Below, piece after piece: positions 12,197-62,438 of a DNA stretch of 64,000 nt. The position numbers were made by a program, and so were the translations under genes. The notes beneath the pieces were generated by a model, which was not told where the DNA came from, made no database searches, and worked only from the letters and a program-made list of their open reading frames with translations. Source of the stretch: Cherax quadricarinatus (taxonomy: Eukaryota > Arthropoda > Malacostraca > Decapoda > Parastacidae); assembly GCF_038502225.1 (NCBI RefSeq), contig NC_091312.1, positions 35,241,982-35,305,981 of the forward strand. Direction: 5' to 3'. The stretch's first letter is position 1, and each line of letters opens with the position of its first letter.

Positions 12197-12336
12197 GTTG
12201 GAAAATAAAGTTTTCACCAGCTAACGCCAGGGGTAGCAGCTCAAACAGGTAAACTGCGCACAAGCCAACTGAATCAGGAGCGTCTGCGCAGCCTGTCCAC
12301 ACGGCCCAATAGCGATGCGAACAATGCGACCTAAAC

Positions 12337-13545: not shown

Positions 13546-13549
13546 AAAT

Positions 13550-14800: not shown

Positions 14801-14899
14801 TTTGATATCCAAGTGAAAACAGGTAAACTGCGCAAAAGCCAACTCAATCAGGAGCGACTGCGCAGCACGTCCGCACAGCCCAATAGCGATGCGAACAAT

Positions 14900-20400: not shown

Positions 20401-20424
20401 AAAGGAAAATCCTATTAATTGACT

Positions 20425-23400: not shown

Positions 23401-23635
23401 GTATTTTTGCGATTGTATTGAACTTATAAGGGTTTGGATGGGTAAGGTTTTAAGGTTAGTGGGGGGAGGGGGTTTGCAGGTCTTGAGGGTTTTAAGTTTA
23501 GATATAACTGGGGTGAATAAAAGGGTTGAGAATGCGATTGGGTATATGATTACGGATTATATATATATGATGTGGGCTATGAGGGAGGCGGACGTGCGTG
23601 CAAGAATTAATGCATTGGCAGCAACTTTTTATAGG
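20425..23635 (+). pseudogene. LINE A copy 2 ORF2: endonuclease-RT, interrupted
   Basis: N-terminal endonuclease (about residues 1-230): TNINGLRSERK, VVFIQEHNYR (Glu), IIGGDWNCVIRRKDVEP (GDWN), RLDRMYVS, FSDHRGVVMH (SDH), all catalytic residues present. Linker: YLEGQLRDCYV, IEEVLWGDRPSAC. RT: APGIDGLPSDFY, VPKGEP, YRAISL-CGDYKIFGRI (one Leu missing relative to copy 1). Frameshift in the A-run at 22028-22035, then QYGVPGRC, AIDWEAAYDSVE (motif A), GRGLRQGCPLSQ (motif B), VGYVDDTTIL (motif C). A TGA at 22897-22899 replaces the Trp of FRFIWGTGSEW, and a frameshift lies near 23020-23100. The C-terminal finger CKDCGGLATIYHTVYFC is intact. LINE B enters at LAATFYR; the last ~37 residues resume at 30041. 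Confidence 0.88.
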
Positions 23636-23727
23636 TCATTCGTCTCTCAACCTGCGGGCTGAGAGGACGCTTTCTAAGCCTGCTCCTGCTTACACCTGGT
23701 GGTGAACCGTGTACTACAGTACGCAAG

Positions 23728-25006
23728 ATGGCGGATCGTCAGGGTAGAAGAGTAAACACGGTCTGTGTTGAATTCATTTGTGGCTCTCTCAGTGGTGCAA
23801 CGACGCATGTCTTGTTGCCTACCATTATTCGCGACGTCTACGGCATCCCAACTGAGGAATTATATGGTGTGGCTCTCAATGAGATGTCGAGGTTTTTTGT
23901 AAAATTCGCAAATGCCGGCTTTTACTCCAAGATTGTGGAAGCTTTTCAAGAGAGGAAAATGGCGGTGAATTCAGCAGTAGAGGTATGCCTGCATGACGTC
24001 TCCACATACATCACCTGCGTCAAAGTAAGGAACGTGCCTTTTGAGGCGGAGGAGTATGTTATTCGGAAAGTTTTTGGTAAATACGGCACGGTACATGCAG
24101 CGACCAAGGGAGTGTGGAGGGAGGGCCCATACGAGGGGCTCCCGGAAGGCTCCTGCACCCTCAAGATGACTTTAAAACAGCCGATTCCATCTTACGTGCA
24201 TCTATAACACTTCAGGACAAGTTTTTGTTCACTATGCAGGCCAACGTAAGACATGCAGGTTATGCAACTCGTATGACCATATGGCTGCTCAGTGCTCCAG
24301 ACGCCTGGTTGTACGCATCCGGGAACCTTCTCCTGTGGTCCTAAGAACCGAGGCCTTTGATCTGGAGACTGGTCCCTTGCCTGAACAAGGACCTAAGCTT
24401 TGGAGTGAGGAAGTACAACAAGAGGAGATGCGGTCTATGGTGTGTGCCACCCTGTCGGTGGACACTACAAACGTGCCCACGCCACCTGTGGGGCCTACGG
24501 AGCCTGTGGGGTTGTCACAGGAAAGTTTGCTGGAGAACGTGCTAAACGATCTCCTGGATGGGGCAGAGCATAGCCCAGACGTTTCACCGGAGTGTCAAGA
24601 AGTGGTGAAGGACGATTCGCCAAAGATGGGAGACCTGGACGTGCCTACAATGACACGGATGGATGAGGTGGTGGTGGAAGTCCACCAGGAGGCTTCGTCT
24701 GGTGAGGAGATGTGTGTGGAAGTTAGTTCCCGCAAACGGACGGCAGGAGTGTCGGATATGGACGAGGTCCTGACACCGGGACAGCGTCCAGGGAAGAAAT
24801 TATGGTCGAAAGTGGCTGAGGCGCCTCCTGCAGACGGGGTTGGGGCAAGCGCCCAGCATATGGGTAGGGCACGGGAGGGTGAGGGGGGCCTTGGGAAGTC
24901 AAAGGTCAAAGAAGGTCAGTGTAATGTACGTGTGGGAACGGGAAAGACCCACAAGCATAGAGGAAAACCTCCTTTTGTGAATTCAAGTGTGTTACCATCA
25001 ATGTAA
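23728..25006 (+). pseudogene. LINE B copy 2 ORF1, one frameshift
   Basis: Starts at MADRQGRRVNTVCVE following an AAGATGG context. Conserved N-terminal domain with VKVRNVPFEAEEYV; the frame breaks at about 24205, just after PIPSYVHL. Shifting +1 recovers NTSGQVFVHYAGQRKTCRLC and the CCHC knuckle CRLCNSYDHMAAQC, then the acidic middle (VVVEVHQEASSGEEMCVEV) and basic tail (KRTAGVSDMDEV, TPGQRPGKKLW) to a stop at 25004-25006. The break is a single-base change, so the copy is young. The 3' end overlaps the start of ORF2. Confidence 0.88.
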
Positions 25007-28000
25007 ATGGCCTGCAGGCAGAGTTTAAGTGTGTGTGGATGGAGTGGTTCTTGTGCAGGTACACTGTGGACGTATGTTTCATACAAGAACACAATTATAA
25101 GTTTGGGCGAGAGTTACGGTTAAAAGGCTACCGAATGTATGTTAGCAGTTCTTTAAAATTAAAGGGTGGGGTAGCTATAGCGGTGAAGGAGTCCAGCCCT
25201 TGGCGAGTCTTAAGATGGGAGGAGGGGGGAGGTGGGAGGTGGGAGGGTGGTGAGGGTAGATGGGTACTGGGGTGAGGTGAGGGTTTGTTTTATTGGCGTT
25301 TACATGCCAGCGGAAAGCAACACTAAAGTTAAAATAGAATTTGTGAGGGAGGCTTTAACGTTTTACTCTCGGGGTTTGCCGTTCATTACCGTCATGGGTG
25401 AGGATTGGAATTGCGTTATCCGCCATGGCGATGTTGAGCCGCGGGGGGCGGGGTGCATTTTACCTGTCTTACAGAATCTGCTGGGGGATGCAGGGGTTTA
25501 TGATGTGGTGGGGCGGGGTGGGTGGGGGGTGGAGCATACGTCCGTTCGCAGGGGCTATGCGGCCCGTCTGGATAGACTTTATGTAACACAAGGGATTAGA
25601 GTTGGGCACGTACAGACCTTTGATGTGGGGTTTTCAGATCACCCTGCAGTGCTAGTGGACTTGAACTGGGATGGAATGATCAGGGTTTATCCAGGTTATT
25701 GGAAACTGAACGTGCGGCTATTGGAGGGGGAGGGGGATGGGTCAGCTTTTCAGGACTGGTGGAAGACTATCTGGGAAACGCGACGGGCAGGTGAATGTTT
25801 GTTGGAATGGTGGGAAACGCGTGCCAAACCTGGAATAGCGAGTTATTATAAGAAGCGGGGAAAAGAGGAGGCGAGGTGGAGGTATGGGCTGCAAAACTAT
25901 CTGGAGGGGCAGCTAAATGATTACTATGTGGGGGGCGGGAGTAGTAGTCGGTATGACGACATTGAACACCTTCGTAGTCGACTTGCAGAAATTCACAATG
26001 AACGTTTCAATGCGGTTAGAGTCAGAGCAGGTATGGAAGACGTGCTATGGGGTGACAAACCTTCGGGTTGTGTCTTGCGCAAATTTAGGGTCAGGCAACA
26101 GGTGACGTCCCTCTTGCAATTGGAAGTATGCACGGGTTTGGGTGGTTACCTGCCGGGTCAAGTACTTCTCACCACGGACAGCATGAGTTTTTATGCTGAT
26201 CTATGGTTTGGGGAAAAACTACGGAGGGGAGTAGGGGGGGTCCATGCGGGTGGCCTGGTGAGGAGGGATTTCAGAAAAGTTATAAGTGACAGGGATAGAA
26301 AGGTACTAGAAGGTAGAATTCGAGTGGAGGAGGTAGAGGAGGCGATTTTCAGTATGAGTAAAGGAAAGGCACCAGTTATAGATGGCATTTCGAATGATTT
26401 TTATAGGGCGCATTGGGGAAGTATTAAGCATTGTTTGGTTGATGTATTAAATTGCGTGCTCACTGAGGGGAGGTTAGGTATGTCACAAAGTACGGGGGTA
26501 GTTGTGTTGGTGCCCAAAAAGGGAGGGGAAAGGGGTCTGAGTGCATATAGAGCAATATCTCTTATGTGCTCTGACTATAAAATCTTTGCAAAAGTTTTAG
26601 GAAACAGAATGAGGAAGGTTATGGGGTCGGTTATTCACGAGGGACAGCTAGGCATACCAGGTAGGAGCATGAGGGATGGACATGTACGTATTCGGGAGTT
26701 TTTGGAGGAATGTCAAGGGGAGGGGGTGTCCTCGGACTTGACTGGCAAAATGCTTATGACTGTGTTGATAGGGATTTATTGAGGCTTATTTTATTGAAGC
26801 AGGGTTTTGGAGAGGGGATTGTCAGATGGGTTGATACCTTGTATGTCACGGCTATGGTACGTGTACAGGTAAACGGTAAATTGGGGCAGCCGGTCCGTAT
26901 GGAAAGGGGTTTGAGGCAAGGGTGCCTCCTCTCCCAGCTGCTTTTTGCTTGTATGCAAAACCCCTTTTATGAGCTGGTGGATGGTGGTTTGAGGCGTGGA
27001 ACGCTGAGCAGTGACCATGCAGCGCGTGTGGTCGGGTACGTAGATGATACCACAATTTTGTTAAAAGGGGAGGAGGATTTGCAGATCGTGGGATGGATTG
27101 TTGAGTTTTTTGGGGAAGAGTCTGGCATGTGCGTCAATAAGGCAAAATCGAAATTATTGGAGGTGGGTACATGGGTGGGGGGGAGGTTGGGCGAAAGGTA
27201 TGGGTGGTCAGTCGTGGTGCAACTTAGAATATGTGGTATCGTGTACATGGCAGATGAGAGGGAGAGCCGAAGGGTAAACTCTGAATTGGTGGTTAACAAG
27301 GCTTTAGATCGACTTCGGGGGTTAAGAGCTGGGGATGTCTCATTGCAACAGAGGACAGTAGTGGTCAATACACTTGTTTATAGTAAAGTATGGGGTGTGG
27401 CTGTGGTGTACCCTTTAAGAGATATGGATATTCAGGAACTGCAGAGAAGGGTCTTACGTTATGTTTGGGGTTTCGGGAGAGCTTGGTTAAGTCGGGAAGT
27501 TGTCATGACCCATGTTCGTCGTGGGAGTTTAGATCTCTTGGCTTTGGGGGCTACGGGTGAAGGCTCTCTATGTAAAGCAGTGGTTCCTCAGGGCGGGCGG
27601 TGAGAAGGGCATCCGGGTGGGTCGGGTAATGATCGAAATGCGTAAATGGTGGAGCGGCAGGGGATTAATCGAGTGTGAGGACATGCTGCATTTATTGTTA
27701 AAGTTGAGAAATGCTCAATGGATCCAGGTGGGGCAAATGGTCAGCATATGTTGTCGTAGGGAAATTGTACAGGGATGGTCTGTTTTTCCGCTGTATAATT
27801 GGGGGGAAATATGGGAAGGATTTTGTAAACTTAAGTTGGCACCAAGGGTTCGTGAATTGGTGTACAGATTTGTCATGGGGATTTTAGCATCAAAATCGGT
27901 CTTACATAGGATGGGTTTGGTAAGGGAGGCGGATTGCTTGCGTTGCGGTCTCGAAGAAACAGCTTTTCATGCTGTCTACTTTTGTGATACCTTGGACAAA

Positions 28001-28314
28001 GTTCGTTCGTGGCTGGGGCAGGTTTTAGATTTTCTTAGTGGGGGAAGTATTTCAACCTTATGGGCCTTAACATTGGACGTTAGCGAAGTTTCAAGTGAGG
28101 TACGAAGAGCAATAATGTGGTGGCTGATTGCCTCTTTATCTCGTGGGGTATGCGGGAAACCGGGGGATCAGTTAGGATCAGGGCAATTGCGGCAGGTATC
28201 TACAGAACGTATTGCAGAAATAAACTCATATATGGTAGAAGTTGGGATAATAGTTTTCCTGCAAAGTATCGAAGTCTTACTGTTAAAATGTTGCTGCAAC
28301 TGCGGATGGGGTAA
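24988..28314 (+). pseudogene. LINE B copy 2 ORF2: endonuclease-RT, multiple frameshifts
   Basis: No ATG precedes the first conserved residues (TINVNGLQAEFK), which overlap the ORF1 tail; translation may depend on reinitiation or frameshifting, or the start is lost. Endonuclease: VDVCFIQEHNYK, TVMGEDWNCVIRHGDVEP (GGDWN changed to GEDWN), RLDRLYV, FDVGFSDHPAVLV. Frameshift near 25232-25275 in a G-rich run. RT: KGKAPVIDGISNDFY, YRAISLMCSDYKIFAKVLGN, GIPGRSMRDGH; frameshift near 26715-26735; LGLDWQNAYDCVD (motif A), MERGLRQGCLLSQLLFACMQ (motif B), VGYVDDTTIL (motif C). Further shifts near 27560-27600 and 28120-28140; C-terminal finger CLRCGLEETAFHAVYFC; ends LQLRMG at 28314. Confidence 0.88.
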
Positions 28315-30040
28315 GGCAACGGGGGCTGGACTCCCCCCGTGGTATAACCAAACGGTATGTTAGAGACTTCAGGGTAGAGGGCGGGGTTTAGGGAGTGACG
28401 TGTATGTATTATGAATGGTTCCGTGCGTCTGTGTGTGTATGGTTGTGGCGTTGTGTGGCACTGAGATCTTGGATTAATCATAAAATGGTCATACATTTTG
28501 ATAATACAGACAAAAAGCAATATTTCAGTATATGTTCCAGCCTCTAACAAGACTGAATTGGTTCCCGACTATGGCCGGGGTTTGGTGAAGTATGTTGGGT
28601 CTTTTCTGGAATTCCCGTTAGGTTTAGTTTAGTCTTTTGTAAGCGGAAGCCACGCTGATGTCACCGCTAAAAGTACAACGTTATACTGGCCTTTAAGGGG
28701 AATGTTCATAAGCAGACCTTTTGGTGATGATTGTAAACTTTTGATGAAGGGCAAAAAGTGTCATTTGCCTGAGATTGTTTTTGTATATGTAGTAGCGGTC
28801 TCCGCTGTGAGGGGGGGGTTGAGATGTATAATGTCCTATATTGTAATCTATGGCCATTCAAGTTCCTTGGGCAGCAGCTTTTGTGGGATGTTGTTCCCTC
28901 ACCCAGTGATATCACATGTATTTTTTTTTTCATTTATGGTGCATAATAGTCAGTTGATGTTTATTTAAGCACCTTTACTAATATCACTGTATAAAAGCAA
29001 GGTATACTTTTTGTGTGTTTATAATTAGTTTGAGAAACTAAATATGGGGTTGGTCGGGGTATTAGGAGTCTTAGTGTTTCCTCATATGTAATCATGCATG
29101 CTAGATCTGTGAAAGTCTTACGTTAATTATTAAAGGATTTTTGAAAGTTTTGATTCCTTTTTCAACATATGCAAAACCAAAAATAAAGAACATCATGTGT
29201 AAATTTCAAGAGTCATGCAGGTTTCTGATAGTTATTTTATATAACCATAGTACCATTGAGTGTACAATGTATTAGTTTATATGATATTGTTTTTGTATAT
29301 AATTTTTTTTATATAATCATAGTACCATGGAGTGTGCAATGCATTAGTTTATATGAAATTGTTTTTGTATATAAAATTTCATATATAAAATGAATAAGAC
29401 TGTCAGGTTTTGGTTATATAGCTATTTTGTGGTTAAGATATGTTCCGGTAGTTCTCTGTTTAGTTATATGTTGTCTTCTTATATAAAGTTTCCATGTATA
29501 CTGTATTTAAAAAAAAAAAATATGCTCCTAGGTTTAAATTATTTTGGTTATTAGTTTATAAATTAAATGAACAACGGTGAGATGTTCAATATGGTGAACT
29601 GAGGTAAATGGGGAGAGGGGAGGGTTTAGTTATAATGATTGAGTTTTTACTGAATGTAATTATTCAGTGTATATATTGTAATTAGCAGATGGGAAGGGGT
29701 AAGAAGATTGTCTTTATTTTGTATTACTTGCACAGTTTTATTTTGTTTTAAAGTAATAATGCATTATACATCTATCAGCTGCGTGAAGTGTAAATATTTG
29801 ACATATTACTGCATATTGCATTTTTTTGTTATTGATGTCAAGCCTAACATTGTATAATCTTGTATTTAGCATAAGTGTTGAAGGATGAACTGTACAGGTG
29901 ATGAGGGATTTTTTTATGTAAAACTTGCAGTGTGTTTAGACAATGAAGAATTTATGTTGTCTGTTGATGATCTGATACTGTATACTTTTATTTATTTAAT
30001 GTATTGTATGTTTTAAATAAAATATAAAAAAAAAAAAAAG
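28315..30040 (+). other. LINE B 3' UTR
   Basis: 1.7 kb of AT-rich non-coding sequence with an internal near-duplicate of ~90 bp (around 29235-29300 versus 29313-29375, both with ATATAATCATAGTACCAT and TTTTTGTATATAA). Ends in AATAAAATAT and a poly(A) run. Several A/T homopolymers; no credible gene. Confidence 0.75.
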
Positions 30041-30975: not shown

Positions 30976-32103
30976 TTACTGTAATGTACAGTGTTGTGTG
31001 TGAGAGTGTATTATCACTGTAATATACGGTGTGTTGTGTGTGAGAGTGTATTACCACTGTAATATACGGTGTGTTGTGTGTGAGAGTGTATTACCACTGT
31101 AATATACGGTGTGTTGTGTGTGAGAGTGTATTATCACTGTAATATACGGTGTGTTGTGTGTGAGAGTGTATTACCACTGTAATATACGGTGTGTTGTGTG
31201 TGAGAGTGTATTACCACTGTAATATACGGTGTGTTGTGTGTGAGAGTGTATTACCACTGTAATATACGGTGTGTTGTGTGTGAGTGTGTATTACCACTGT
31301 AATATACGGTGTGTTGTGTGTGAGAGTGTATTACCACTGTAATATACGGTGTGTTGTGTGTGAGAGTGTATTACCACTGTAATATACGGTGTGTTGTGTG
31401 TGAGTGTGTATTACCACTGTAATATACGGTGTGTTGTGTGTGAGAGTGTATTACCACTGTAATATACGGTGTGTTGTGTGTGAGAGTGTATTACCACTGT
31501 AATATACGGTGTGTTGTGTGTGAGAGTGTATTACCACTGTAATATACGGTGTGTTGTGTGTGAGAGTGTATTACCACTGTAATATACGGTGTGTTGTGTG
31601 TGAGTGTGTATTACCACTGTAATATACGGTGTGTTGTGTGTGAGAGTGTATTACCACTGTAATATACGGTGTGTTGTGTGTGAGAGTGTATTACCACTGT
31701 AATATACGGTGTGTTGTGTGTGAGAGTGTATTACCACTGTAATATACGGTGTGTTGTGTGTGAGTGTGTATTACCACTGTAATATACGGTGTGTTGTGTG
31801 TGAGAGTGTATTACCACTGTAATATACGGTGTGTTGTGTGTGAGAGTGTATTACCACTGTAATATACGGTGTGTTGTGTGTGAGTGTGTATTACCACTGT
31901 AATATACGGTGTGTTGTGTGTGAGAGTGTATTACCACTGTAATATACGGTGTGGTGTGTGTGAGAGTGTATTACCACTGTAATATACGGTGTGTTGTGTG
32001 TGAGAGTGTATTACCACTGTAATATACGGTGTGTTGTGTGTGAGAGTATATTACCACTGTAATATACGGTGTGTTGTGTGTGAGTGTGTATTACCACTGT
32101 AAC
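30976..32103. repeat. 40-bp tandem repeat in LINE A 3' UTR
   Basis: About 28 highly homogeneous copies of a 40-bp unit composed of AATATACGGTGTGTTGTGTG and TGAGAGTGTATTACCACTGT. Variation is limited to a few positions (GAGA/GAGT, ACCA/ATCA), so amplification is recent or actively homogenised. It ends about 125 bp before the LINE poly(A), inside the transcribed 3' UTR. Confidence 0.97.
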
Positions 32104-32227: not shown

Positions 32228-32623
32228 AATGGACCACGATGGATGGTCACCTTGACAATGGTCCAGGATGGATGGTCACCTTGACAATGTGCCAGGATGG
32301 ATGGTCACCTTGACAATGGGCCAGGATGGATGGCCACCTTGACAACGGGCCAGGATGGCCCGTTTCCTTGACTATGGGCCCGGATTGATGATCCCCTTGA
32401 CAATGGGGCAGGGTGGACGGTTACCTTGACAATGGGCCAGGATGGACGGTCACCTTGACAATGGGGCAGGGTGGACGGTAATCTTGACAATGGGGCACGG
32501 TGGACGGTCACCTTGACAATGGGGCAGGGTGAACGGTTACCTTGACAATGGGCCAGGATGGACGGTCACCTTGACAATGGGGCAGGGTGGACGGTCACCT
32601 TGACAATGGGCGAGGATGGACGG
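32228..32623. repeat. 29-bp minisatellite array, third segment
   Basis: About 13 units between the LINE A poly(A) tail and the solo LTR at 32624; includes a divergent unit around 32350-32400 (CCGTTTCCTTGACTATGGGC). The array is continuous in phase with 40699 across the solo LTR. Confidence 0.95.
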
Positions 32624-32653
32624 TGTTACGGCCCCCTGCCAAACTAGCGGTTA

Positions 32654-40698: not shown

Positions 40699-41705
40699 GA
40701 CGGTCACCTTGACAATGGGGTAGGGTGGACGGTCACCTTGACAATGGGGTAGGGTGGACGGTCACCTTGACAATGGGGTAGGGTGGACGGTCACCTTGAC
40801 AGTGGGGTAGGGTGGACGGTCACCTTGACAGTGGGCGAGGATGGACGGTCACCTTGACAATGGGGCAGGATGGACGGTCACCTTGACAATGGGGTAGAGT
40901 GGACGGTCACCTTGACAATGGGCGAGGATGGACGGTCACCTTGACAATGGGGTAGGGTGGACGGTCACCTTGACAATGGGGTAGGGTGGACGGTCACCTT
41001 GACAGTGGGCGAGGATGGACGGTCACCTTGACAATGGGGCAGGATGGACGGTCACCTTGACAATGGGGTAGAGTGGACGGTCACCTTGACAATGGGCGAG
41101 GATGGACGGTCACCTTGACAATGGGGTAGGGTGGACGGTCACCTTAATAGGGCAGGATGGACTGTCACCTTGAAAATGGCCATGATGGATGGACACATTG
41201 ACAATGGGCCAGGAAGGATGGACTGTCACCTTGACAATGGTCCATGATGGACTGTCACCTTGGCAGTGGGCCATGATGGACGGTCACCTTGACAGTGGGC
41301 CATGATGGACTGTCACCTTGACAGTGGGCCATGATGGACTGTCACCTTGACAGTGGGCCATGATGGACTGTCACCTTGACAATGGGTAGGATGGATGGCC
41401 ACCTTGACAATGGGGCAGGATAGATGGTCACCTTGACAATGGGCCATGATTGACGGTCATCTTGACAATGGGCGAGGATGGACTGTCACCTTGACGATGG
41501 GGCAGGATAGATGGTCACCTTGACAATGGGGCAGGATAGATGGTCACCTTGACAATGGGCCAGGATGGACGGTCACCTTGACAATGGGCCAGGATGGACG
41601 GTCACCTTGACAATGGGCCAGGATGGACGGTCACCTTGACAATGGGCCAGGATGGATGGTTACCTTGACAATGGGCCAGGATGGACGGTTTTTTGACAAT
41701 GGGCC
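40699..41705. repeat. 29-bp minisatellite array, fourth segment with higher-order unit
   Basis: About 34 units. Unit variants from ~40820 to ~41140 recur in the order AGTGGGCGAGGAT, GGGGCAGGAT, GGGGTAGAGT, GGGCGAGGAT, GGGGTAGGGT, GGGGTAGGGT, then the same series again, giving a six-unit (174-bp) higher-order period. Later units are GGGCCATGAT and GGGCCAGGAT types. Confidence 0.95.
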
Positions 41706-41966
41706 AGGATGGCCCATTGTCAAGGTGACAATTGACCATCCTGGCCCTGATCCACTTTTAGGAAAGTAACGCAACGATGAGGTGGCCATCCATCCTGGCC
41801 CATTGTCAAGGTGACCAACCATCCTGGCCCATTGTCAAGGTGACCAACCATCCTGGCCCATTGTCAAGGTGACCGTCCATCCTGAAGGATGGACGGTCAC
41901 CTTAACAATGGGCCAGGATGGATGGCCACCTCATCCTTGAGTTACTTTCCAAAAAGTTGGTTTTGG
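41706..41966. repeat. Inverted duplication at the minisatellite edge
   Basis: From 41711 the repeat unit is reversed (GGCCCATTGTCAAGG). It is followed by a piece of non-satellite flank (about 41752-41790: AGGAAAGTAACGCAACGATG), more reversed units to 41882, a sharp centre at CCATCCTGAAGGATGG, then forward units and the same flank in forward orientation (about 41925-41966: CATCCTTGAGTTACTTTCC). The right arm has fewer units than the left. The result is a long near-palindrome. Confidence 0.85.
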
Positions 41967-51352: not shown

Positions 51353-53299
51353 CGGTACCCCTCCTCAGCTCTGAGAAATACTGATAGTAACTCTAGCACC
51401 ATCAATACCCTTCCTCAGCTCTCTGAGTAATAATGATAGTAACTCTAGCACCATCAATATCCCTCCTCAGCTCTCTGAGTAATAATGATAGTAACTCTAG
51501 CACCATCAATATCCCTCCTCAGCTCTCTGAGTAATAATGATAGTAACTCTAGCACCATCAATATCCCTCCTCAGCTCTCTGAGTAATAATGATAGTAACT
51601 CTAGCACCATCAATATCCCTCCTCAGCTCTCTGAGTAATAATGATAATAACTCAAGCAAGATCAACACCCCTACTCAGCTCTATGAATAATAATGATAGT
51701 AACTCAAGCACCATCAATACCCTTCCTCAGCTCTCTGAGTAATAATGATAGCAACTCAAGCACCATCAATACCCTTCCTCAGCTCTCTGAGTAATAATGA
51801 TAGCAACTCAAGCACCATCAATACCCTTCCTCAGCTCTATGAGTAATAATGATAGCAACTCAAGCACCATCAATACCCTTCCTCAGCTCTCTGAGTAATA
51901 ATGATAGTAACTCAAGCACCATCAATACCCTTCCTCAGCTCTCTGAGTAATAATGATAGCAACTCAAGCACCATCAATACCCTTCCTCAGCTCTCTGAGT
52001 AATAATGATAGTAACTCAGGCACCATCATATCCCTTCTCAGCTCTCCAAGTAATAATGATAGTAACTCAAGCACCATCAACATCCCTCCTCAGCTGTCTG
52101 AGCAATAATGATAGTAACTCAGCCACCATCAATACCCTCCTCAGCTCTCTGAGTAATAATGATAGTAACTCTAGCACCATCAATACCCTCCTCAGCTCTC
52201 TGAGTAATAATGATAGTAACTCAGGCACCATCAATATCCCTTCTCAGCTCTCCGAGTAATAATGATAGTAACTCAGGCACCATCAATATCCCTCCTCAGC
52301 TCTCCGAGTAATAATGATAGTAACTCAAGCACCATTAATATCCCTCCTCAGCTCTCTGAGTAATAATGATAGTAACTCTAGCACCATCATATCCCTCCTC
52401 AGCTCTCCGAGTAATAATGATAGTAACTCAAGCACCATCAATACCCCTCCTCAGCTCTCCGAGTAATAATGATAATAGCTCAGGCACCATCAATATCCCT
52501 CCTCAGCTCTCCGAGTAATAATGATAGTAGCTCAAGCACCATCAATACCCCTCCTCAGCTCTCTGAGTAATAATGATAGTAACTCAGGCACCATCAATAT
52601 CCCTCTTCAGCTCTCTGAGTAATGATGATTTCACTCAAGCACCATTAATATCCCTCCTCAGCTCTCTGAGTAATAATGATAGTAACTCTAGCACCATCAA
52701 CATCCCTCCTCAGCTCTCTGAGTAATAATGATAGTAACTCTTGCACCATCAATATCCCTCCTCAGCTCTCTGAGTAATACTGATTGTAACTCTTGCACCA
52801 TCAACATCCCACCTCAGCTCTCTGAATAATGATGATAGTAACTCAAGCACCATCAATATCCCTCCTCAGCTCTTTGAGTAATGATGATAGTAACTCAAGC
52901 ACCATCAATATCCCTCCTCAGCTCTCTGAATAATGATGATAGTAACTCAAGCACCATCAATATCCCTCCTCAGCTCTTTGAGTAATGATGATAGTAACTC
53001 AAGCACCATCAATATCCCTCCTCAGCTCTCTGAATAATGATGATAGTAACTCAAGCACCATCAACATCCCACCTCAGCTCTCTGAATAATGATGATAGTA
53101 ACTCAAGCACCATCAATATCCCTTCTCAGCTCTCTGAGTAATGATGATAGTAAATCAAGCACCATCAATATCCCTTCTCAGCTCTCTGAGTAATACTGAT
53201 TGTAACTCTTGCACTGTCGATGCCCCACCTCAGCTCTATGAGTAATAATGGTAGCAACTCTAGCACCATCAATACCCCTCCTCAGCTGTTTGAGTAATA
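51352..53299. repeat. 52-bp satellite array
   Basis: Unit of 52 bp containing CCTCCTCAGCTCTCTGAG and TAATAATGATAGTAACTC and AAGCACCATCAATATC; spacing measured as 52 (51421 to 51473). About 37 copies with variant blocks (ATACCC/ATATCC, TAATAATG/TAATGATG). Interrupted at 53300 by an inverted-repeat element, resuming at 54112. Confidence 0.97.
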
Positions 53300-53487
53300 G
53301 GTAGTGTCACATTTGTTCAATGTGGAAGTAGGTTGTGCCCAAGAATTAGGCAAGCGAAGAATTCCTAAGTATTAAGATCCCAAGAAGTTGCAGTGTCTGA
53401 CAGGTTTGTAGATGAATGGTTCAGAGAACCGACATGTTGATAAATTAGACACATGTGCAACTCTTGGGTATCTTTGTTGAGGAAACG

Positions 53488-53512
53488 TTTCGCCACACAG
53501 TGGCTTCATCAG
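53488..53512 (-). ncRNA. Hammerhead-ribozyme-like core, copy 1
   Basis: Minus strand: CTGATGA, an extra A, stem II GCCAC-TGT-GTGGC, then GAAA. Preceded by GGA and followed by CGTTTCC, so the core lies between potential stem I strands GGA/TCC and a palindromic ACGT. The extra A between CTGATGA and stem II departs from the canonical core. Activity is inferred, not shown. Confidence 0.5.
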
Positions 53513-53928
53513 TCCATACATAGGAGAAACTTGAAGAACAGGAGGAGAATGAGGTAATCAGTCCCTCAACCTAGAGTCGATGTGTTCAGTCCATCAATCT
53601 TGTGTAGAATACGGGAGATGAGCGGAGAAGCAGCTTATAAACCGTATGGCAGGAGAGGTGCAGCAGTCATAGGTAGTGTCACATTTGTTCAATGTGGAAG
53701 TAGGTCGTGCCCAAGAATTAGGCAAGCGAAGAATTCCTAAGTATTAAGATCCCAAGAAGTTGCACTACCTATGACTGCTGCGCCTCTCCTGCCATACGGT
53801 TTATAAGCTGCTTCTCCGCTCATCTGCCGTATTCTACTCAAGATTGATGGACTGAACACATCGACTCAAGGTTGAGGGACTGATTACCTCATTCTCCTCC
53901 TGTTCTTCAAGTTTCTCCTATGTATGGA

Positions 53929-53953
53929 CTGATGAAGCCACTGTGTGGCGAAA
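53929..53953 (+). ncRNA. Hammerhead-ribozyme-like core, copy 2
   Basis: Plus-strand partner of copy 1 in the right arm: CTGATGA, A, GCCAC-TGT-GTGGC, GAAA, followed by CGTTTCCTCAATAAAG. AATAAA begins 10 nt after the GAAA. Confidence 0.5.
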
Positions 53954-54111
53954 CGTTTCCTCAATAAAGATACCCAAGAGTTGCACATGTGTCTAATTTA
54001 TCAGCATGTCGGTTCTCTGAACCATTCATCTACAAACCTGTCAGACACTGCAACTTCTTGGGATCTTAATACTTAGGAATTCTTCGCTTGCCTAATTCTT
54101 GGGCACAACCT

Positions 54112-54295
54112 GTTTGAGTAATAATGATAGTAATTCTAGCACCATCAATACCCCTCCTCAGCTCTTTGAGTAATGATGATAGTAACTCAAGCACCATCAA
54201 TATCCCTCCTCAGCTCTCAATAGTACTGATAGTAACTCCAGCACCATCAGTACCCCTCCTCAGCCCTCAGTAATTCTTTTAGTAACTCCAGCACT
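54112..54295. repeat. 52-bp satellite, right remnant
   Basis: Three to four diverged units of the 51352-53299 array to the right of foldback element 1, grading into a TACTAAT-type simple repeat. Confidence 0.85.
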
Positions 54296-57266
54296 GACAC
54301 TAATGCTACCACAAATACTAATTCTAATATTTATACTAACGCTAATACTAATGGTAACACAAATACTAATTCTAATGTTAATACTAACACTAATACTAAT
54401 ACTGATCTATTAGTACCATTAACACGAAAATTATTATTTATGGTCAATACTACTACTACCACTGCGATTACTATTACTACTACTAATTCTAATATCATTA
54501 TTAGGACTAGTACAACTACTACTTCTACTACTACCGCTATTACGACTAGTACTACAATTACTTCTTCTACTACGGCTATTACGACTAGTACTACTACTAC
54601 TTCCACTACTACTAAAACTACTACTACTAGCAATACAACTACTAGTACTGTTTCTACAACGACTACTACTACGATTACTACTACTACTACAACTACTACT
54701 GCTACGACTACTACTACCACGACTACTCCGACGACTACTACTTCTCTTACTACTACTAATAGAGCGACTTCTACTACTGCCACTACTATTACTAGACCTA
54801 CTATTGCCAGTACTATTACTAGCACTACTACTACTACGACTAACTCTACTACTGCTTCTACTACTACGACTACTACGACTACTATTACTACTACTACTAA
54901 CACCACTACTACTGCCTCGACTACTGCTGCTACTACCACTACTTCCATTAGTACCACTACTGTTACTACCTCTACGACTACTACTGCTACTACCACTTCT
55001 AATACTACTATCACCACCACTACTACTACTACTAAGACTACCACTACTACAACTACTACTACTACTACTACAACGACAACCAACACTACTACTACTACCA
55101 TGACTACCAACACTACTACTACGACTACCACTACTACAACTACTACTACTACCACGACTACCAACACTACTACTATGACTACCACAACTACAACTACTAC
55201 TACCACGACTACGAACACTACTACTAAGACTACCACTACTACAACTACTACTACCACGACTACCAACACTATTACTAAGACTACCACTACTACAACTACT
55301 ACTACTACCACTACTACAACTACTACTACTACCACGACTACCAACACTACCACTACTACAACTACTACTACTACCACGACTACCAACACTACCACTACGA
55401 CTACCACTACTACAACTACTACTACTACAACGACTACCAACACTACTACTAAGACCACCACTACTACAACTGCTACTACCACGACTACCAACACTACTAC
55501 TACGACTACCACTACTACAACTACTACTACTACCACGACTCTACTACGACTACTACAACACTACTACTACTTCTACTACGACTACTACAACACTACTACT
55601 AAGACTACCAACACTACTACTACGACTACCACTACTACAACTACCACTACTACAACAACTACTACCACGACTACCAACACTACTACTAAGACTACCACTA
55701 CTACAACTACTACTACTACCACGACTACTAACACTACTACTACGACTACCACTACTACAACTACTACTACTACCACGACTACCAACAGTACTACTAAGAC
55801 TACCACTACTACAACTACTACTACTACAACGACTACAATTGCTACTACCACGACTACCAACACTACTACTACGACTACCACTACTACAACTACTACTACT
55901 TCCACGACTACCAACACTACTACTACCACGACTACCAACACTACTACTAAGACTACCACTACTACAACTACTACTACCACGACTACCAACACTTCTACTA
56001 CGACTACCACTTCTACAACTACTACTACTACCACGACTACCAACACTACTACTAAGACTACCACTACTACAACTACTACTACTACCACGACTACCAACAC
56101 TACTACTAAGACTACCTCTACTACAACTGATACTACCACGATTATCAACACTACTACTAAGACTACCTCTACTACAACTACTACTACTACCACGATTATC
56201 AACACTACTACTAAGACTACCACTACTACAACTACTACTACTACCACGACTACCAACACTACTACTAAGACTACCACTACTACAACTACTACTACTACTA
56301 CCACGACTACCAACACTACTACTAAGACTACCTCTACTACAACTACTACTACTACCACGATTATCAACACTACTACTAAGACTACCACTACTACAACTAC
56401 TACTACTACCACGACTACCAACACTACTACTAAGACTACCACTACTACAACTACTACTACTACCACGACTACCAACACTACTACTAAGACTACCTCTACT
56501 ACAACTACTACTACTACCACGATTATCAACACTACTACTAAGACTACCTCTACTACAACTACTACTACTACCACGATTATCAACACTACTACTAAGACTA
56601 CCTCTACTACAACTACTACTACTACCACCACGATTATCAACACTACTACTAAGACTACCACTACTACAACTACTACTACTACAACGACTACCAACACTAC
56701 TACTATGACTACCACTACTACAACTGCTACTACCACGACTACCAACACTACTACTACGACTACCACTACTACAACTACTACTACTTCCACGACTACCAAC
56801 ACTACTACTACCACGACTACCAACACTACTACTAAGACTACCACTACTACAACTACTACTACCACGACTACCAACACTTCTACTACGACTACCACTTCTA
56901 CAACTACTACTACTACCACGACTACCAACACTACTACTAAGACTACCACTACTACAACTACTACTACTACCACGACTACCAACACTACTACTAAGACTAC
57001 CTCTACTACAACTACTACTACTACCACGATTATCAACACTACTACTAAGACTACCTCTACTACAACTACTACTACTACCACGATTATCAACACTACTACT
57101 AAGACTACCACTACTACAACTACTACTACTACCACGACTACCAACACTACTACTAAGACTACCACTACTACAACTACTACTACTACCACGACTACCAACA
57201 CTACTACTAAGACTACCTCTACTACAACTACTACTACTACCACGATTATCAACACTACTACTAAGA

Positions 57267-57297
<31 letters not shown>

Positions 57298-57568
57298 CAC
57301 GATTATCAACACTACTACTAAGACTACTACTACTACGATTATCAAACTACCACTACTACAACTACTACTACTACCACGACTACCAACACTACTACTAAGA
57401 CTACCTCTACTACAACTACTACTACTACCACGATTATCAACACTACTACTAAGACTACCACTACTACTACTACCACGACTACCAACACTTCTACTACGAC
57501 TGCCACTTCTACAACTACTACTACTACCACGACTACCAACACTACTACTAAGACTACCACTACTAAGA
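54296..57568. repeat. Degenerate ACN triplet array with 54-bp higher-order unit
   Basis: About 3.2 kb of ACT/ACC/ACA/ACG/AAC triplets. From ~55400 rightward an 18-triplet (54-bp) unit is apparent: ACTACTACTAAGACTACC, ACTACTACAACTACTACT, ACTACCACGACTACCAAC. One variant class has ATTATCAAC and ACCTCT and recurs in blocks; a block around 55705-56160 is repeated near 56715-57060. Enormous open frames (1,044 Thr-rich residues on plus, 586 Val-rich on minus) exist only because the triplets lack stops. Confidence 0.96.
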
Positions 57569-59298
57569 ACATAAGAACATAAGAACGAAGGAACACTGCA
57601 GAAGGCCTACTGGCCCATGCGAGGCAGGTCCAAGTCTCCTACCGGCTTAAGCCAATGCACCCAACCTAGTCAGGTCAGGTCACATTGACTTAAGGGAGGA
57701 ACACGGCAACCGACCTGGTAGCACAAGCTATCAGGTCTAACTCACACCCACCCACATCTACTCATGTATTTATCCAACCTATTTTTAAAGCTACACAACG
57801 TTCTAGCCTCTATAACGGTACTTGGGAGTTTGTTCCACTCATCCACAACTCTATTACCAAACCAGTACTTTCCTATATCCTTCCTGAATCTGAATTTTTC
57901 CAACTTAAAACCATTGCTGCGAGTCCTGTCTAGGCTAGATATTTTCAGCACACTATTTACATCCCCTTTATTTATTCCTGTCTTCCATTTATACACCTCA
58001 ATCATATCCCCCCTAATTCTACGTCTTTCTAGAGAGTGCAGTTTCAGGGCCCTTAGTCTATCCTCATAGGGAAGGTTTCTGATACATGGGATCAACTTTG
58101 TCATCCTCCTTTGTACATTTTCCAGAGAATTTATATCCAGTCTGTAATACGGTGACCAAAACTGTGCAGCATAATCTAAATCAGGCCTAACCAAGGATGT
58201 ATAGAGTTGAAGAACAACCTGAGGACTCCTATTATTTATGCTTCTTGATATGAAGCCAAGGATTCTATTAGCTTTATTGCGAACACTTATGCACTGTTGT
58301 CTTGGTTTCAGATTACTGCTAACCAGAACTCCTAAATCTTTTTCGCAATCCGTAATATTAAGATCTACATTATTTAGTTTATATGTGGCATGGTTATTGT
58401 CCTGTCCAACATTTAGAACTTTGCATTTGTCTATATTAAACTGCATCTGCCACTTCTCCGACCACTGCATCAGTCTATTCAAATCTTCCTGGAGTGCTCG
58501 AATGTCCTCGTCAGAATGAATTCGACGGCCTATTTTGGTGTCATCGGCAAACTTGCCGATGTCGCTCTTTATGCCCTCATCTATGTCGTTTATGTAGATT
58601 GTGAACAGCAGGGGGCCCAACACTGACCCCTGTGGAACACCGCTCGTGACACTTCCCCACTCTGATTTCTCCCCATTTATGCAAACTCTCTGCTGCCTAT
58701 TTGTCAACCATGCCTCTATCCAGGAAAAAATTTCTCCTCCTATTCCATGTGCTTTAATTTTCCTCAACAGTCTCTGATGTGGGACCCTGTCAAAAGCCTT
58801 ACTGAAGTCCATATACACAATATCATATTCATTACCATGATCTACCTCCTCAAATACCTTAGTGAAAAAAGTTAATAAATTCGTAAGGCAGGAACGCCCC
58901 TTTGTAAAACCATGCTGAGATTCGTTGATTAATTTATGCTTTTCAAGGTGGCTACGAACTGCCTCGGCAATTATTGATTCCATAAATTTTCCCACTATGG
59001 AGGTCAGGCTTATTGGTCTATAGTTCGAAGCTAAGGACCTGTCACCTGTTTTGAAAATAGGTATCACATTTGCCATTTTCCACTTATCTGGCACCATGCC
59101 AGTTTGTAGTGATATGTTGAAAAGATTAGCCAAAGGTGTGCTAAGCTCCTCTTTACATTCCTTTAGAACCCTTGCATACAGTTCATCAGGGCCTGGGGAT
59201 TTGTTAGGTTTTAATTTATCTATTTGCCTAAGGACCATGTCACTTGTGACCCTAATAGTGCACAGTTTATTATCGTCCTGTTCTACATAATTTATCAT
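57569..59298 (-). mobile_element. CR1-like LINE D copy 2, 5' truncated, young
   Basis: Inserted in the ACN array with TACTAAGA on both sides (57561-57568 and 59299-59306), although this octamer also occurs in the array. 3' end at the left (ATAAGAACATAAGAAC). About 1.73 kb, with an uninterrupted RT frame. Confidence 0.9.
57742..59298 (-). CDS. LINE D copy 2 reverse transcriptase, 5' truncated but open
   Basis: 518 codons with no stop: first LINE codons read MINYVEQDDNKLC, where the ATG coincides with the insertion boundary, and the frame is open further upstream into the triplet array (spurious Val-rich leader). Motifs: KSPGPDELYARVLKEC, NYRPISLTSIVGKFMESI, HGFTKGRSCLTNLL, MDFSKAFDRVPHQRLL (motif A), SGVPQGSVLGPLLFTIYIND (motif B), KFADDTKIGR (motif C), and the CR1 thumb/tail YEDRLRALKLHSLERRRIRG to SRCGWV. 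The endonuclease and ORF1 are missing, so the fragment cannot retrotranspose alone, but all RT catalytic aspartates are present. It serves as the reference for the degraded copy at 43590-47432. Confidence 0.9.
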   Translation of the reverse strand: MINYVEQDDNKLCTIRVTSDMVLRQIDKLKPNKSPGPDELYARVLKECKEELSTPLANLFNISLQTGMVPDKWKMANVIPIFKTGDRSLASNYRPISLTSIVGKFMESIIAEAVRSHLEKHKLINESQHGFTKGRSCLTNLLTFFTKVFEEVDHGNEYDIVYMDFSKAFDRVPHQRLLRKIKAHGIGGEIFSWIEAWLTNRQQRVCINGEKSEWGSVTSGVPQGSVLGPLLFTIYINDIDEGIKSDIGKFADDTKIGRRIHSDEDIRALQEDLNRLMQWSEKWQMQFNIDKCKVLNVGQDNNHATYKLNNVDLNITDCEKDLGVLVSSNLKPRQQCISVRNKANRILGFISRSINNRSPQVVLQLYTSLVRPDLDYAAQFWSPYYRLDINSLENVQRRMTKLIPCIRNLPYEDRLRALKLHSLERRRIRGDMIEVYKWKTGINKGDVNSVLKISSLDRTRSNGFKLEKFRFRKDIGKYWFGNRVVDEWNKLPSTVIEARTLCSFKNRLDKYMSRCGWV

Positions 59299-59382
59299 TA
59301 CTAAGACTACATCTACTACAACTACTACTACTACCACGATTATCAACACTACTACTAAGACTACAACTACAACAAAATCAAT
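59299..59382. repeat. ACN triplet array, right remnant
   Basis: Same ACT/ACC/ACG triplet sequence as 54296-57568, including CCACGATTATCAACACTACT, separated by LINE D copy 2 and ending in the target site of foldback element 2. Confidence 0.9.
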
Positions 59383-59424
59383 GTGACACTTATGCAACAC
59401 ATGGGAATCTTTATTGAAGAAACG

Positions 59425-59449
59425 TTTCGCCACACTGTGGCTTCATCAG
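59425..59449 (-). ncRNA. Hammerhead-ribozyme-like core, copy 3
   Basis: Minus strand CTGATGA, A, GCCAC-AGT-GTGGC, GAAA. Only the apical loop differs (AGT instead of TGT) while the stem is conserved. First member of the 378-bp tandem pair. Confidence 0.5.
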
Positions 59450-59802
59450 TCCAATACAAAGTTGAAATGGGTAAGGAGAGTAGAAGTATGAGGTAATCAG
59501 TCCTTCAACCTGGATTCGATGTGTTCAGTCCATCACTCTTGTAGTAAGTGCAGCATAGGGCCAGAGAGGTGGCTTATATACTGCGGTGAGATGAGTTGAA
59601 GCAGGAGGAGGCGGGATCTTAGTGGGACCTGCCACTAATGTAAGTAGGTCATCGTCCAAAGGTTTGGGCAAGCGTTGAAGTCTTTGTACCAAGATTCCAT
59701 TATGTTGCAGTGTCTGACAGATGTGATGAATGGTTTTGAAAACCGACAAGTTGAAGAATTGAGACACTTATGCAACACATGGGAATCTTTATTGAAGAAA
59801 CG

Positions 59803-59827
59803 TTTCGCCACACAGTGGCTTCATCAG
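59803..59827 (-). ncRNA. Hammerhead-ribozyme-like core, copy 4
   Basis: Minus strand CTGATGA, A, GCCAC-TGT-GTGGC, GAAA; second member of the tandem pair, exactly 378 bp from copy 3. Confidence 0.5.
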
Positions 59828-60190
59828 TCCAATACAAAGTAGAAATGGGTAAGGAGAGTAGAAGTATGAGGTAATCAGTCCCTCAACCTGTATTCGATGT
59901 GTTCAGTCCATCATCACATCTGTCAGACACTGCAACATCATGGAATCTTGGTACAAAGACTTCAACGCTTGCCCAAACCTTTGGACGATGACCTACTTAC
60001 ATTAGTGGCAGGTCCCACTAAGATCCCGCCTCCTCCTGCTTCAACTCATCTCACCGCAGTATATAAGCCACCTCTCTGGCCCTATGCTGCACTTACTACA
60101 AGAGTGATGGACTGAACATATCGAATCCAGGTTGAGGGACTGATTACCTCATACTTCTACTCTCCTTACCCATTTCTACTTTGTATTGGA

Positions 60191-60215
60191 CTGATGAAGC
60201 CACTGTGTGGCGAAA
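60191..60215 (+). ncRNA. Hammerhead-ribozyme-like core, copy 5
   Basis: Plus-strand copy in the inverted unit; preceded by TTGTATTGGA and followed by CGTTTCTTCAATAAAG. Stem I would be GGA with TCT (one G-T wobble) instead of GGA/TCC in foldback element 1. Confidence 0.5.
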
Positions 60216-60293
60216 CGTTTCTTCAATAAAGATTCCCATGTGTTGCATAAGTGTCTCAATTCTTCAACTTGTCGGTTTTCAAAACCATTCATC

Positions 60294-60765
60294 ACAACAA
60301 AATCAATAAAGATCAACAACAACAACAGTATTATTTTCATCAACAAAACCATACCTCAACAACACTAACAAATTAAACAACTAAAACAAGAACAGCATCA
60401 TAAAAAACTATTAACAAAGCAACTAAAACAAAAAAGCATCAGCAACATCAATACCAACAACAACAACTTCTACTAATACTTATACTTATGCTTCAGCATC
60501 ATCAGCAACTACAACTTCAGCATCAACATCAATAAGAAAAACATCAACAGTAACAGAAACACAAACAACAATAATATATTACTTAACAAAACAACAACAA
60601 CAATGAAAAGAACAACAAATACAAAAATAACACTAAAAACGACAGCAACAACAATAATAATATTAACAACATCAATAATAACAACAATAATAACAACAAA
60701 ACAATAGTAACAATAACAATGAAGAAAACTGAACAAATATCAGGAAACTTTTAACTATGTATTGA
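60294..60765. repeat. CAA/ATC-rich low-complexity sequence
   Basis: A-rich mixture of AACAACAAC, ATCAATAAC and AACAATAAT words without fixed period. No gene seen. Confidence 0.8.
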
Positions 60766-62175
60766 TTCATTATATCTGAGGTATACAATGATGTGTTTAT
60801 TATATCTGAGGTATACAATGATGTGTTTATTATATCTGAGGTATACAATGATGTGTTTATTATATCTGAGGTATACAATGATGTGTTTATTATATCTGAG
60901 GTATACAATGATGTGTTTATTATATCTGAGGTATACAATGATGTGTTTATTATATCTGAGGTATACAATGATGTGTTTATTATATCTGAGGTATACAATG
61001 ATGTGCTCATTATATCTGAGGTATACAATCATGTGTTTATTATATCTGAGGTATACAATGATGTGCTCATTATATCTGAGGTATACAATGATGTGTTTAT
61101 TATATCTGAGGTATACAATGATGTGTTTATTATATCTGAGGTATACAATGATGTGCTCATTATATCTGAGGTATACAATGATGTGTTTATTATACCTGAA
61201 TTATACAATGATGTGGTCATTATACATGAGGTATACAAAGAACTATTCATTATACACGAGATATACAATGATCCGATCATTATACCTGAGGTATATAAAG
61301 ATGTGTTCATTGTACCTGAGTTATACAATGATGAGATCATTATACCTGAAGTATACAATGAGGTGTTCATTATACCTTAGGTATAGAGTGATGTGTTCAT
61401 TATACTTGAGTTATACAATGATGTGTTCATTATACCTGAGGTATACAATGATGTGCTCATTATACGTGAGATATACAATGTGTTCATTATTCCTGAGGTA
61501 TACAATGAAGTGTCCATTACACGTGTGGTATACAATGATGTGTTCATCATACCTGAGGTATGCAATGATGTTTTCATCATACCTGAGGTATACAATGATG
61601 TGTTCATCATACCTGAGGTATACAATGATGTGTTAATCATACCCGAGTTATACAATGATGTGATCATTATACCTGAGGTATACAAATATGTGTTCATTTT
61701 ACTTGAGGTATACAATGTGCTCATTATACCTGAGGTATACAATGATGTGTTCATTATACCTGAGGTATACAATAATGTGATCATTATACCTTAGGTATAC
61801 AATGATGTGTTCATTGTACCTAAGGTATACATGGATATGTTCATTATACCTGAGGTATACAATAATGTATTCTTTGCACCTAAGGTATACAATGATGTGT
61901 TTATCATATCTGAGGTATACAATGATGTGTTCATCATACCTGAGGTATACAATGATGTGTTCATTATGCATGAGTTATACAACGATGTGATCATTATACC
62001 TGAGATATACAATGTGTTCATTATTCCTGGGATATACAATGATGTGTTCATAATACCTAAGGTATATATGAATATGTTCATTTTACCTGAGGTACACAAT
62101 GATGTATTCATTATACCTGAGGTATAAAATGAGGTGTTCATTTTACCTCAGGTATATAGTGATCTCTTCATTATA
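60766..62175. repeat. 30-bp satellite array
   Basis: About 47 copies of a 30-bp unit, GTATACAATGATGTGTTTAT plus TATATCTGAG. The first ~14 copies (to ~61190) are almost identical; copies to the right diverge progressively and include 27-bp and other variants. A period divisible by 3 keeps frames open on both strands (for example MMCLLYLRYT repeats), which are artefacts. Confidence 0.97.
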
Positions 62176-62438
62176 CCTGATGTGTTCTTCTCTACAATGT
62201 TGACCATGGACTCCGTTTTAAAGTCTATCGAAAACCTACCAACCAACACGATCTTCTCCACTTGTACTCTCACCAAGACACCAAAACTATACCTGGTGTA
62301 ATTATAGACTTTTTCCTGCGCGCACTCAGAATCTGCAGCAATGAGTTCCTTGAGAAAGAATTCTCTCTAATTGAACAAGTATTTTCCAAACTTCGGTATA
62401 CTCGTCATTTCATCAGACACTGTAGACGAAGGGCATTA
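62176..62438 (+). pseudogene. Penelope-like element reverse transcriptase, C-terminal fragment
   Basis: Open frame of ~85 codons from VDHGLRFKVYRKPTNQHD through the His/Ser-rich stretch LLHLYSHQDTKTIPGVIIDF to FLRALRICSNEFLEKEF and LRYTRHFIRHCRRRAL. The order YRKPTN..D..H.YS......K.GV...FLRALRICS..FL..E......F..L.Y...FI is the characteristic end of Penelope-like RTs, just before their GIY-YIG endonuclease linker. The frame is cut on the right by LINE C (62439) and on the left merges into the 30-bp satellite. No catalytic RT motifs or endonuclease remain. It is the only coding evidence for a Penelope-like element here, near the two ribozyme-bearing foldbacks. Confidence 0.78.

Follow-up and report, generated by a model that had tools for sequence, protein, structure and literature searches.

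Two head-to-head, non-coding insertions with hammerhead-like cores in the genome of Cherax quadricarinatus

A stretch of 64,000 nucleotides from Cherax quadricarinatus (assembly GCF_038502225.1, contig NC_091312.1, forward-strand positions 35,241,982 to 35,305,981; the whole stretch is called the window, and positions are counted from its first base) carries five short sequences that resemble the cores of hammerhead ribozymes. The five cores sit in two insertions of one non-coding family, with units of 372 bp in insertion A and 378 bp in insertion B. Insertion A (53300-54109) lies inside a 52-bp minisatellite and insertion B (59383-60293) between simple repeats. In each, 1.25-1.4 units on the minus strand are joined head-to-head to about one unit on the plus strand.

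The cores were located without prior coordinates, by scanning the window for CTGANGA followed by zero or one nucleotide, a stem of at least 3 bp closed by a loop of 3-9 nucleotides, and GAA. Exactly five places match this loose pattern, two on the plus and three on the minus strand. They share one layout, GGA CTGATGA A GCCAC NNN GTGGC GAAA CGTT TCY. An extra A before stem II, a 5-bp stem II, a three-nucleotide loop and then GAAACGTT are found in all five, and the loop is TGT in four of them and AGT in the core at 59449. The CUGANGA and GAAA boxes with a stem II between them are present in every core, as are all the conserved letters of the hammerhead consensus. Stem I can form (GGA with TCC or TCT), and the base at the predicted cut site is U, that is, not G. 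An earlier, sequence-only reading of this DNA had described the same five cores, down to the two loops and the extra A, and all were found again by the independent scan. It had also noted that the three bases past the cut complement GGA; they are TCC in the two cores of insertion A and TCT in the three of insertion B.

Could such cores arise by chance? The word CTGATGA occurs 16 times in the window against 10.3 expected, and alone it therefore carries no weight. The loose pattern has a mean of 0.58 matches in 100 first-order surrogate sequences and a maximum of five, so that the loose scan by itself is not decisive. A stricter pattern (stem of at least 4 bp and GAAA) is still matched five times in the window, whereas 300 order-3 surrogates average 0.09 matches, with no more than two in any one of them; 26 of the 300 have a match at all. 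The five cores are related copies, all from two insertions of one repeat family, and so not independent. The surrogate counts are thus evidence that the motif is real, not that it arose in five independent events.

The anatomy of the insertions is best followed with unit position 1 set at the first base after the predicted cut (Table 1). When the flanks of insertion A are joined with one copy of its target-site duplication, they align to the 52-bp minisatellite with 89% identity over 237 nt. The inverted-repeat arms of the two insertions, 349 and 348 nt long, are 98% complementary. In both insertions the 3' ends of the ribozyme-sense strands of both copies face the flanks. Direct repeats are present as well. 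The sequence-only reading had proposed a 378-bp tandem, which proves to be real: 154-nt copies that contain the hammerhead begin at 59382 and 59760, a spacing of 378, and are 97% alike. It had made no mention of the direct repeat in insertion A (about 93-100 nt, spacing 372, without a hammerhead), of the inverted-repeat layout or of the 14-bp target duplications. The copies overlap by 2 nt (A) and 3 nt (B) at the inner junctions, and three of the four outer ends share 2-3 nt with the target. At the fourth, the outermost two bases of the B minus copy match neither the unit nor the duplication and are unexplained. Both insertions have direct and inverted terminal repeats placed head-to-head within a target duplication, as expected of a non-autonomous Penelope derivative. 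The units are structured retro-insertions, more than ribozyme copies.

Near-palindromes are a known product of fold-back reads, and since both insertions are nearly palindromic, sequencing or assembly artefacts come to mind. This origin is very improbable. The arms within an insertion agree at 98% but differ at 6 of 345 sites in A and 6 of 348 in B, the end points are different, and each insertion has its own perfect 14-bp duplication. Identity between A and B is lower: seven longer alignments give 80-85% and four short ones 73-77%. The near-identity of the arms therefore points to a single template, or a very recent tandem, as the probable origin of the two arms in each insertion. Private differences among the three B copies number 4, 1 and 1; with three copies every simple difference is private, and this comparison thus does not separate a circle from a fresh tandem. 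A read-through RNA of either insertion (53330-54111, 59382-60258) would fold into a hairpin of about 350 bp, a possible source of small RNAs that could also hide the ribozymes.

Table 1. Features of insertions A and B, in window positions. The C of CTGATGA is the first coordinate of a plus-strand core and the last of a minus-strand core. Bit scores are from the covariance model built from the five cores unless Rfam is named.
Feature	Position	Strand	Remarks
Hammerhead core A-	53484..53512	-	CTGATGA to predicted cut between 53484/53483; 86.5 bits; Rfam Hammerhead_3 14.5 bits, sub-threshold
Hammerhead core A+	53929..53957	+	predicted cut after 53957; 88.0 bits; Rfam Hammerhead_3 14.5 bits, sub-threshold
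Hammerhead core B-1	59421..59449	-	loop AGT; predicted cut between 59421/59420; 88.7 bits
Hammerhead core B-2	59799..59827	-	loop TGT; predicted cut between 59799/59798; 90.1 bits
Hammerhead core B+	60191..60219	+	predicted cut after 60219; 90.1 bits; no Rfam match up to E = 10
Left target-site duplication, A	53286..53299	.	CTGTTTGAGTAATA; perfect 14-bp copy at 54110-54123; 14-mer at only these two places in the window
Right target-site duplication, A	54110..54123	.	CTGTTTGAGTAATA, perfect 14 bp
Left target-site duplication, B	59369..59382	.	ACAACAAAATCAAT; perfect 14-bp copy at 60294-60307; 14-mer at only these two places in the window
Right target-site duplication, B	60294..60307	.	ACAACAAAATCAAT, perfect 14 bp
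Insertion A, minus copy	53300..53763	-	464 nt, 1.25 times the 372-nt unit; unit positions 93-372 followed by 1-184
Insertion A, plus copy	53764..54109	+	346 nt, 26 nt short of one unit; unit positions 179-372 followed by 1-152; 98% identical to minus copy
Insertion B, minus copy	59383..59913	-	531 nt, 1.4 times the 378-nt unit, with two hammerheads; unit positions 264-378, a complete unit, then 1-38
Insertion B, plus copy	59914..60293	+	380 nt, almost exactly one lap; unit positions 73 to 378, then 1 to 74; 98-99% identical to minus copy
TATA-like box, A+	53802..53807	+	TATAAG; 127 nt upstream of core
TATA-like box, B+	60062..60067	+	TATAAG; 129 nt upstream of core
Second conserved block, A+	53840..53891	+	AAGATTGATGGACTGAAC...GGGACTGATTACCTCA; 4/52 differences from B+
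Second conserved block, B+	60100..60151	+	4/52 differences from A+

Is the core better preserved than its surroundings? In the comparison of A+ with B+ it is: 1 of 36 core positions is substituted against 42 of 193 other aligned columns (Fisher p = 0.005), a count that leaves out 82 gap columns, most of them past the end of B+. The 52-nt block upstream is well kept too (Table 1), and conservation by itself thus does not pick out the ribozyme; it is support, not proof. The same block holds two further GGACTGA words. Its conservation lends something to the notion that the core is kept for a reason other than catalysis, e.g. protein binding or a start-codon context such as ATGAAGCCACTGTGTGGC, as does an ATG inside the core, but the frame that starts there meets a stop 11 codons on in four of the five copies, and 45 codons on in the other. 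All the hammerhead core letters occur here together with a perfect stem II, a combination that chance matches elsewhere lack (see below), and a non-catalytic role for the core seems to us improbable.

The five cores are probably minimal dimeric hammerheads of the Penelope type, judging from core letters and pairing geometry. ACGT is self-complementary, and base pairing between two copies was checked and is possible; since there is no room for a loop within one copy, stem III needs a second copy, much as had been proposed from the sequence alone. Paired in this manner, B-1 and B-2 could together release an RNA of 378 nt. The proposal of a minimal hammerhead acting in tandem or as a dimer has thus kept its core letters, its ACGT geometry, its likeness to published Penelope cases (so far as the portions of those accounts consulted extend) and the conservation of the core between A and B. 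It fared less well with models and predicted folds. The suggested covariance-model check gave no significant match, the best being 14.5 bits against a threshold of 48.5.

Several of these results weigh against a hammerhead identity. With Rfam, no hammerhead family reaches threshold in the whole window, and scans of both whole insertions up to E = 10 return no hammerhead. In runs on 86-base stretches, which covered the A-, A+ and B+ cores, Hammerhead_3 is the only match up to E = 10 in each of the two A stretches (14.5 bits, E = 0.75), and the B+ stretch has no match up to that limit. The Rfam hammerhead models presumably expect helix III. In ViennaRNA predictions, whose parameters ignore the tertiary structure of a catalytic core, the double-hammerhead fold has -18.1 (A) and -13.3 (B) kcal/mol and is not the energy minimum: two separately folded monomers have -21.2 (A, 2 x -10.6) and -26.8 (B, 2 x -13.4) kcal/mol, and the best predicted dimers, at -27.3 (A) and -32.7 (B) kcal/mol, are other folds. 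The best monomer folds pair the core letters G5-G8 with CGUU. The outer extensions of stem I in insertion B (UAUUG/CAAUA) are not kept in A. Stem II is invariant in four distinct rows, so that covariation is silent.

Further copies were sought in several ways. A covariance model built from the five cores scores them at 86-90 bits, which, as it was built from them, proves nothing more; the next best match in the window and 13 other loci, with default filters, has 16.3 bits. A blastn search of the window with the four copies gave matches only within A and B, so that neither method found a further good copy in the 64 kb. The A+ copy (346 nt) has no match in phage records. The exact core pattern is absent from viral contigs (0 matches), and looser patterns occur in 2 and 4 viral contigs and in 7 bacterial contigs. 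Two of these loci, L001 and L002, are GC-rich, lack a matching stem and were judged by eye to be chance matches. Among the looser CTGATGA...CGAAACG matches (L003-L013), which likewise count as chance, stem II is missing from 10 of 11 and is 3 bp long in L006.

A helper gene was likewise sought in the window. Pfam searches of 8 of the 49 open reading frames (ORFs) of at least 130 aa found no Penelope reverse transcriptase or GIY-YIG gene; three of the eight have no match, and the others match a reverse transcriptase or endonuclease of long interspersed nuclear element (LINE) type, or DUF1759. The window also encodes a LINE protein (57742-59433, minus strand) that matches one from Cherax quadricarinatus at 99% identity over 93%. 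Within the four copies themselves, the longest open stretch from an M is 49 aa. The combined reverse transcriptase and GIY-YIG frame of an autonomous Penelope element is thus absent from them. Penelope elements are given as 2.3% of Astacidea genomes on average, in the portion of PMC10454600 consulted.

How did these insertions arise? The account that we hold to be probable is that minimal hammerheads of Penelope type are carried by a short (372-378 nt) non-coding retroelement, likely a non-autonomous Penelope-like derivative, that moves by a cycle in five steps. The cores, the units, the lengths beyond one unit, the head-to-head layout, the target duplications and the microhomology can be read from the DNA; from them we infer cleavage, a circle, a helper and an order of events. 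RNA would first be made from the unit's TATA-like box, a putative promoter, or by read-through. Two hammerheads, in tandem or on two molecules, would then form a double hammerhead by pairing of their palindromic ACGU, with cleavage after ACGUU; the released RNA of 372-378 nt would be ligated to a circle, although an uncut multimer would serve too. Thirdly, a helper reverse transcriptase-endonuclease, probably from an autonomous Penelope-like element, would cut the target strands 14 bp apart. Reverse transcription of one shared template would next start from both 3' ends and in some cases run past a full lap. Finally, the two complementary DNAs (cDNAs) would be joined head-to-head at a microhomology of 2-3 nt, and gap filling would duplicate the 14 bp.

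Parts of this cycle follow closely from the anatomy. The duplication implies that 14-nt 3' overhangs were left on the top strand of the left flank and on the bottom strand of the right flank, and that both strands were extended from there into DNA complementary to the element RNA. Apparently, then, each target end primed a cDNA of its own. The minus copies, at 464 and 531 nt, are longer than a unit and differ in their ends (93 to 184; 264 to 38), which points to a template without a fixed end. Permuted ends throughout, together with more than one unit in two of the four copies, require a circular or multimeric template. In the retrozyme model a circle is the product of a hammerhead pair and a ligase, according to the part of PMC7229834 consulted; for the present units a multimeric template may be an alternative. 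In a bolder form of the proposal, the two cut strands of one target prime at the same time on small self-cleaving RNA circles, copying them for up to 1.4 laps, and the products are joined head-to-head; this is offered tentatively, as a possibility short of a probable one.

Other observations tell against the account as a whole. Reverse transcription would have started at four unit positions (38, 74, 152 and 184), not at one or two adjacent ones as in Anolis. Anolis hammerhead mutants still insert in vitro (PMC11167929), so that cleavage may not be needed, and the Anolis RNA alone did not cut without protein (PMC11167929). Some rotifer Penelope insertions have no target duplication, by the account in the part of PMC3846280 consulted, and a target duplication is therefore not diagnostic. 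To these may be added the Rfam scores and fold energies given above, the lack of a helper gene among the 8 of 49 ORFs searched, and the fact that only two insertions, both within the 64-kb window, were seen.

Might the units be simply the pseudo-long terminal repeats (pLTRs) of an autonomous Penelope-like element, with A and B as pLTR-ORF-pLTR insertions that lost their coding region and no step through circular RNA? Apart from the circle this overlaps with the cycle proposed here. The same direct and inverted repeats, TATA box and target duplications are described for Adineta vaga Penelope, and solo pLTRs and pLTR-mediated mobilization in trans are on record (PMC3846280, in part). Loss of a coding region between fixed pLTRs should, however, leave the same repeat each time, and the repeated part differs between the insertions (93-100 nt without a hammerhead in A, 154 nt with one in B), the unit ends are permuted, and the four copies have no open stretch longer than the 49 aa already given. 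This origin is unlikely. A metazoan retrozyme of the published kind, with tandem non-LTR repeats and a type I hammerhead spread via circular RNAs, comes somewhat closer and overlaps with the proposed cycle too, and yet is still doubtful. Units of 372 and 378 bp with a GC content of 44% fall within the published limits (150-450 bp, GC below 50%; PMC7229834, in part), copies exceed one unit, though the tandem extends only to 1.25 and 1.4 units, the target duplications are longer than 4 bp, and circular folds have energies at z = -2.8 and -2.2 against 100 shuffles each. The hammerhead, however, is of the minimal Penelope type and not the canonical type I form with its helix III and loop contacts, for a helix III does not fit inside one copy. 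The features described for retrozymes in the portions of PMC7229834 and PMC7761336 consulted do not include inverted copies joined head-to-head.

If small non-coding Penelope-like units are indeed copied by dual priming, Penelope inverted repeats could be seen differently. Self-priming on an antisense template has been invoked to explain them (PMC3846280, in part). Dual priming on a sense template would explain the present insertions without antisense RNA. Were it to hold, it would give a sense-template account of Penelope inverted repeats and one integration pathway linking Penelope elements and retrozymes. The inverted structure of more than one lap suggests how such RNAs are copied back into chromosomes.

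Elsewhere in the window, two groups of LINE ORFs, at 7302-14842 (minus strand) and 19187-28363 (plus strand), look very similar by eye and face opposite ways on the two sides of a 29-bp minisatellite (17274-18971). GC skew changes sign, as if a large inverted duplication were present. Related 29-bp minisatellites (GGACGGTCACCTTGACAATGGGNCAGG-like) form five arrays, at 2-914, 17274-18971, 32228-32624, 40699-41712 and 41780-41884, the last of which is inverted. A 40-bp tandem array at 30991-32102 has 28 copies with 98% matches; it is very homogeneous and probably recent. The ORF at 14983-15696 (minus strand) matches DUF1759 (E 9.5e-11) and is possibly part of a BEL/Pao-type element; a protein search with it scored 130 candidates, none at E 0.001. 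SNORD36 matches in five places at 60783-61682 (E 0.34-0.49, just above threshold) are most likely spurious, as a 30-bp tandem array at 60766-62180 has C/D-box-like words in its unit.

Minimal dimeric hammerheads of Penelope-like elements were reportedly described by Cervera and de la Pena in 2014 and by Lunse, Weinberg and Breaker in 2017. The present cores share with them the CUGANGA/GAAA boxes, stems I and II, the lack of a helix III in each copy, the occurrence of tandem copies and the proposal of a dimer. They differ in residing in ORF-less units of 372-378 nt; the extra A before stem II may be a second difference. In the portions of the literature consulted, Penelope-like elements are said to conserve minimal hammerheads that lack helix III, with cleavage as dimers proposed (PMC6155905), and minimal motifs are said to occur in tandem, perhaps cleaving as dimers, and most of those in animal genomes to be dispersed in non-coding regions (PMC7761336). 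The dimer geometry is thus already published, and the ribozyme itself extends a known class by one case. More can be learned from the anatomy of the insertions: two separate copies keep their duplications, permuted ends, lengths beyond one unit and microhomology joints, and from this anatomy the proposal that circles are templates for Penelope-type integration becomes directly testable in any decapod assembly. Neither 'hammerhead' nor 'retrozyme' occurs in the main texts of PMC10454600 and PMC7859515. A literature search over titles and the starts of abstracts, which lay outside the main Penelope-hammerhead papers, found no crustacean hammerhead insertions described as head-to-head, permuted and ORF-less, a result that speaks only weakly for novelty.

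How do the insertions compare with whole Penelope elements and with retrozymes? As described in the part of PMC3846280 consulted, a typical animal Penelope insertion has direct and inverted pLTRs, a TATA box in the pLTR and, in the examples, duplications of 8-10 bp, and the inverted form met most often in rotifers has its inverted terminal repeats head-to-head, with duplications of 8-10 bp or none. Pen2a of Adineta vaga, from the same source, resembles the present insertions in its direct and inverted terminal repeats placed head-to-head, the TATA box in the repeat, its target duplication and a preference for simple AT-rich targets. The present units, in contrast, have no reverse transcriptase/GIY-YIG coding region, their ends are circularly permuted and their duplications measure 14 bp.

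The purified Penelope-like protein of Anolis cuts and extends both target strands (PMC11167929). PAc, a Poseidon element of Anolis carolinensis (PMC11167929), has AT-rich targets and a hammerhead near its start codon, as here, but in PAc reverse transcription begins at fixed internal sites, and the element has a coding region. The PAc start codon follows G8, whereas the ATG of the present cores is A6-U7-G8 and its frame stops early in most copies. The 26 nt from this ATG to the cut had been considered as a match to Anolis, where the cut lies 26 bp after the start codon; the match was dropped, because G8 precedes the start codon there and lies within the ATG here. Metazoan non-LTR retrozymes, as far as the portion of PMC7229834 consulted describes them, are like the present insertions in unit size, low GC content, tandem copies of more than one unit and the lack of an ORF. 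They carry a canonical type I hammerhead, in contrast to the minimal Penelope-type motif and the inverted, joined copies found in Cherax quadricarinatus.

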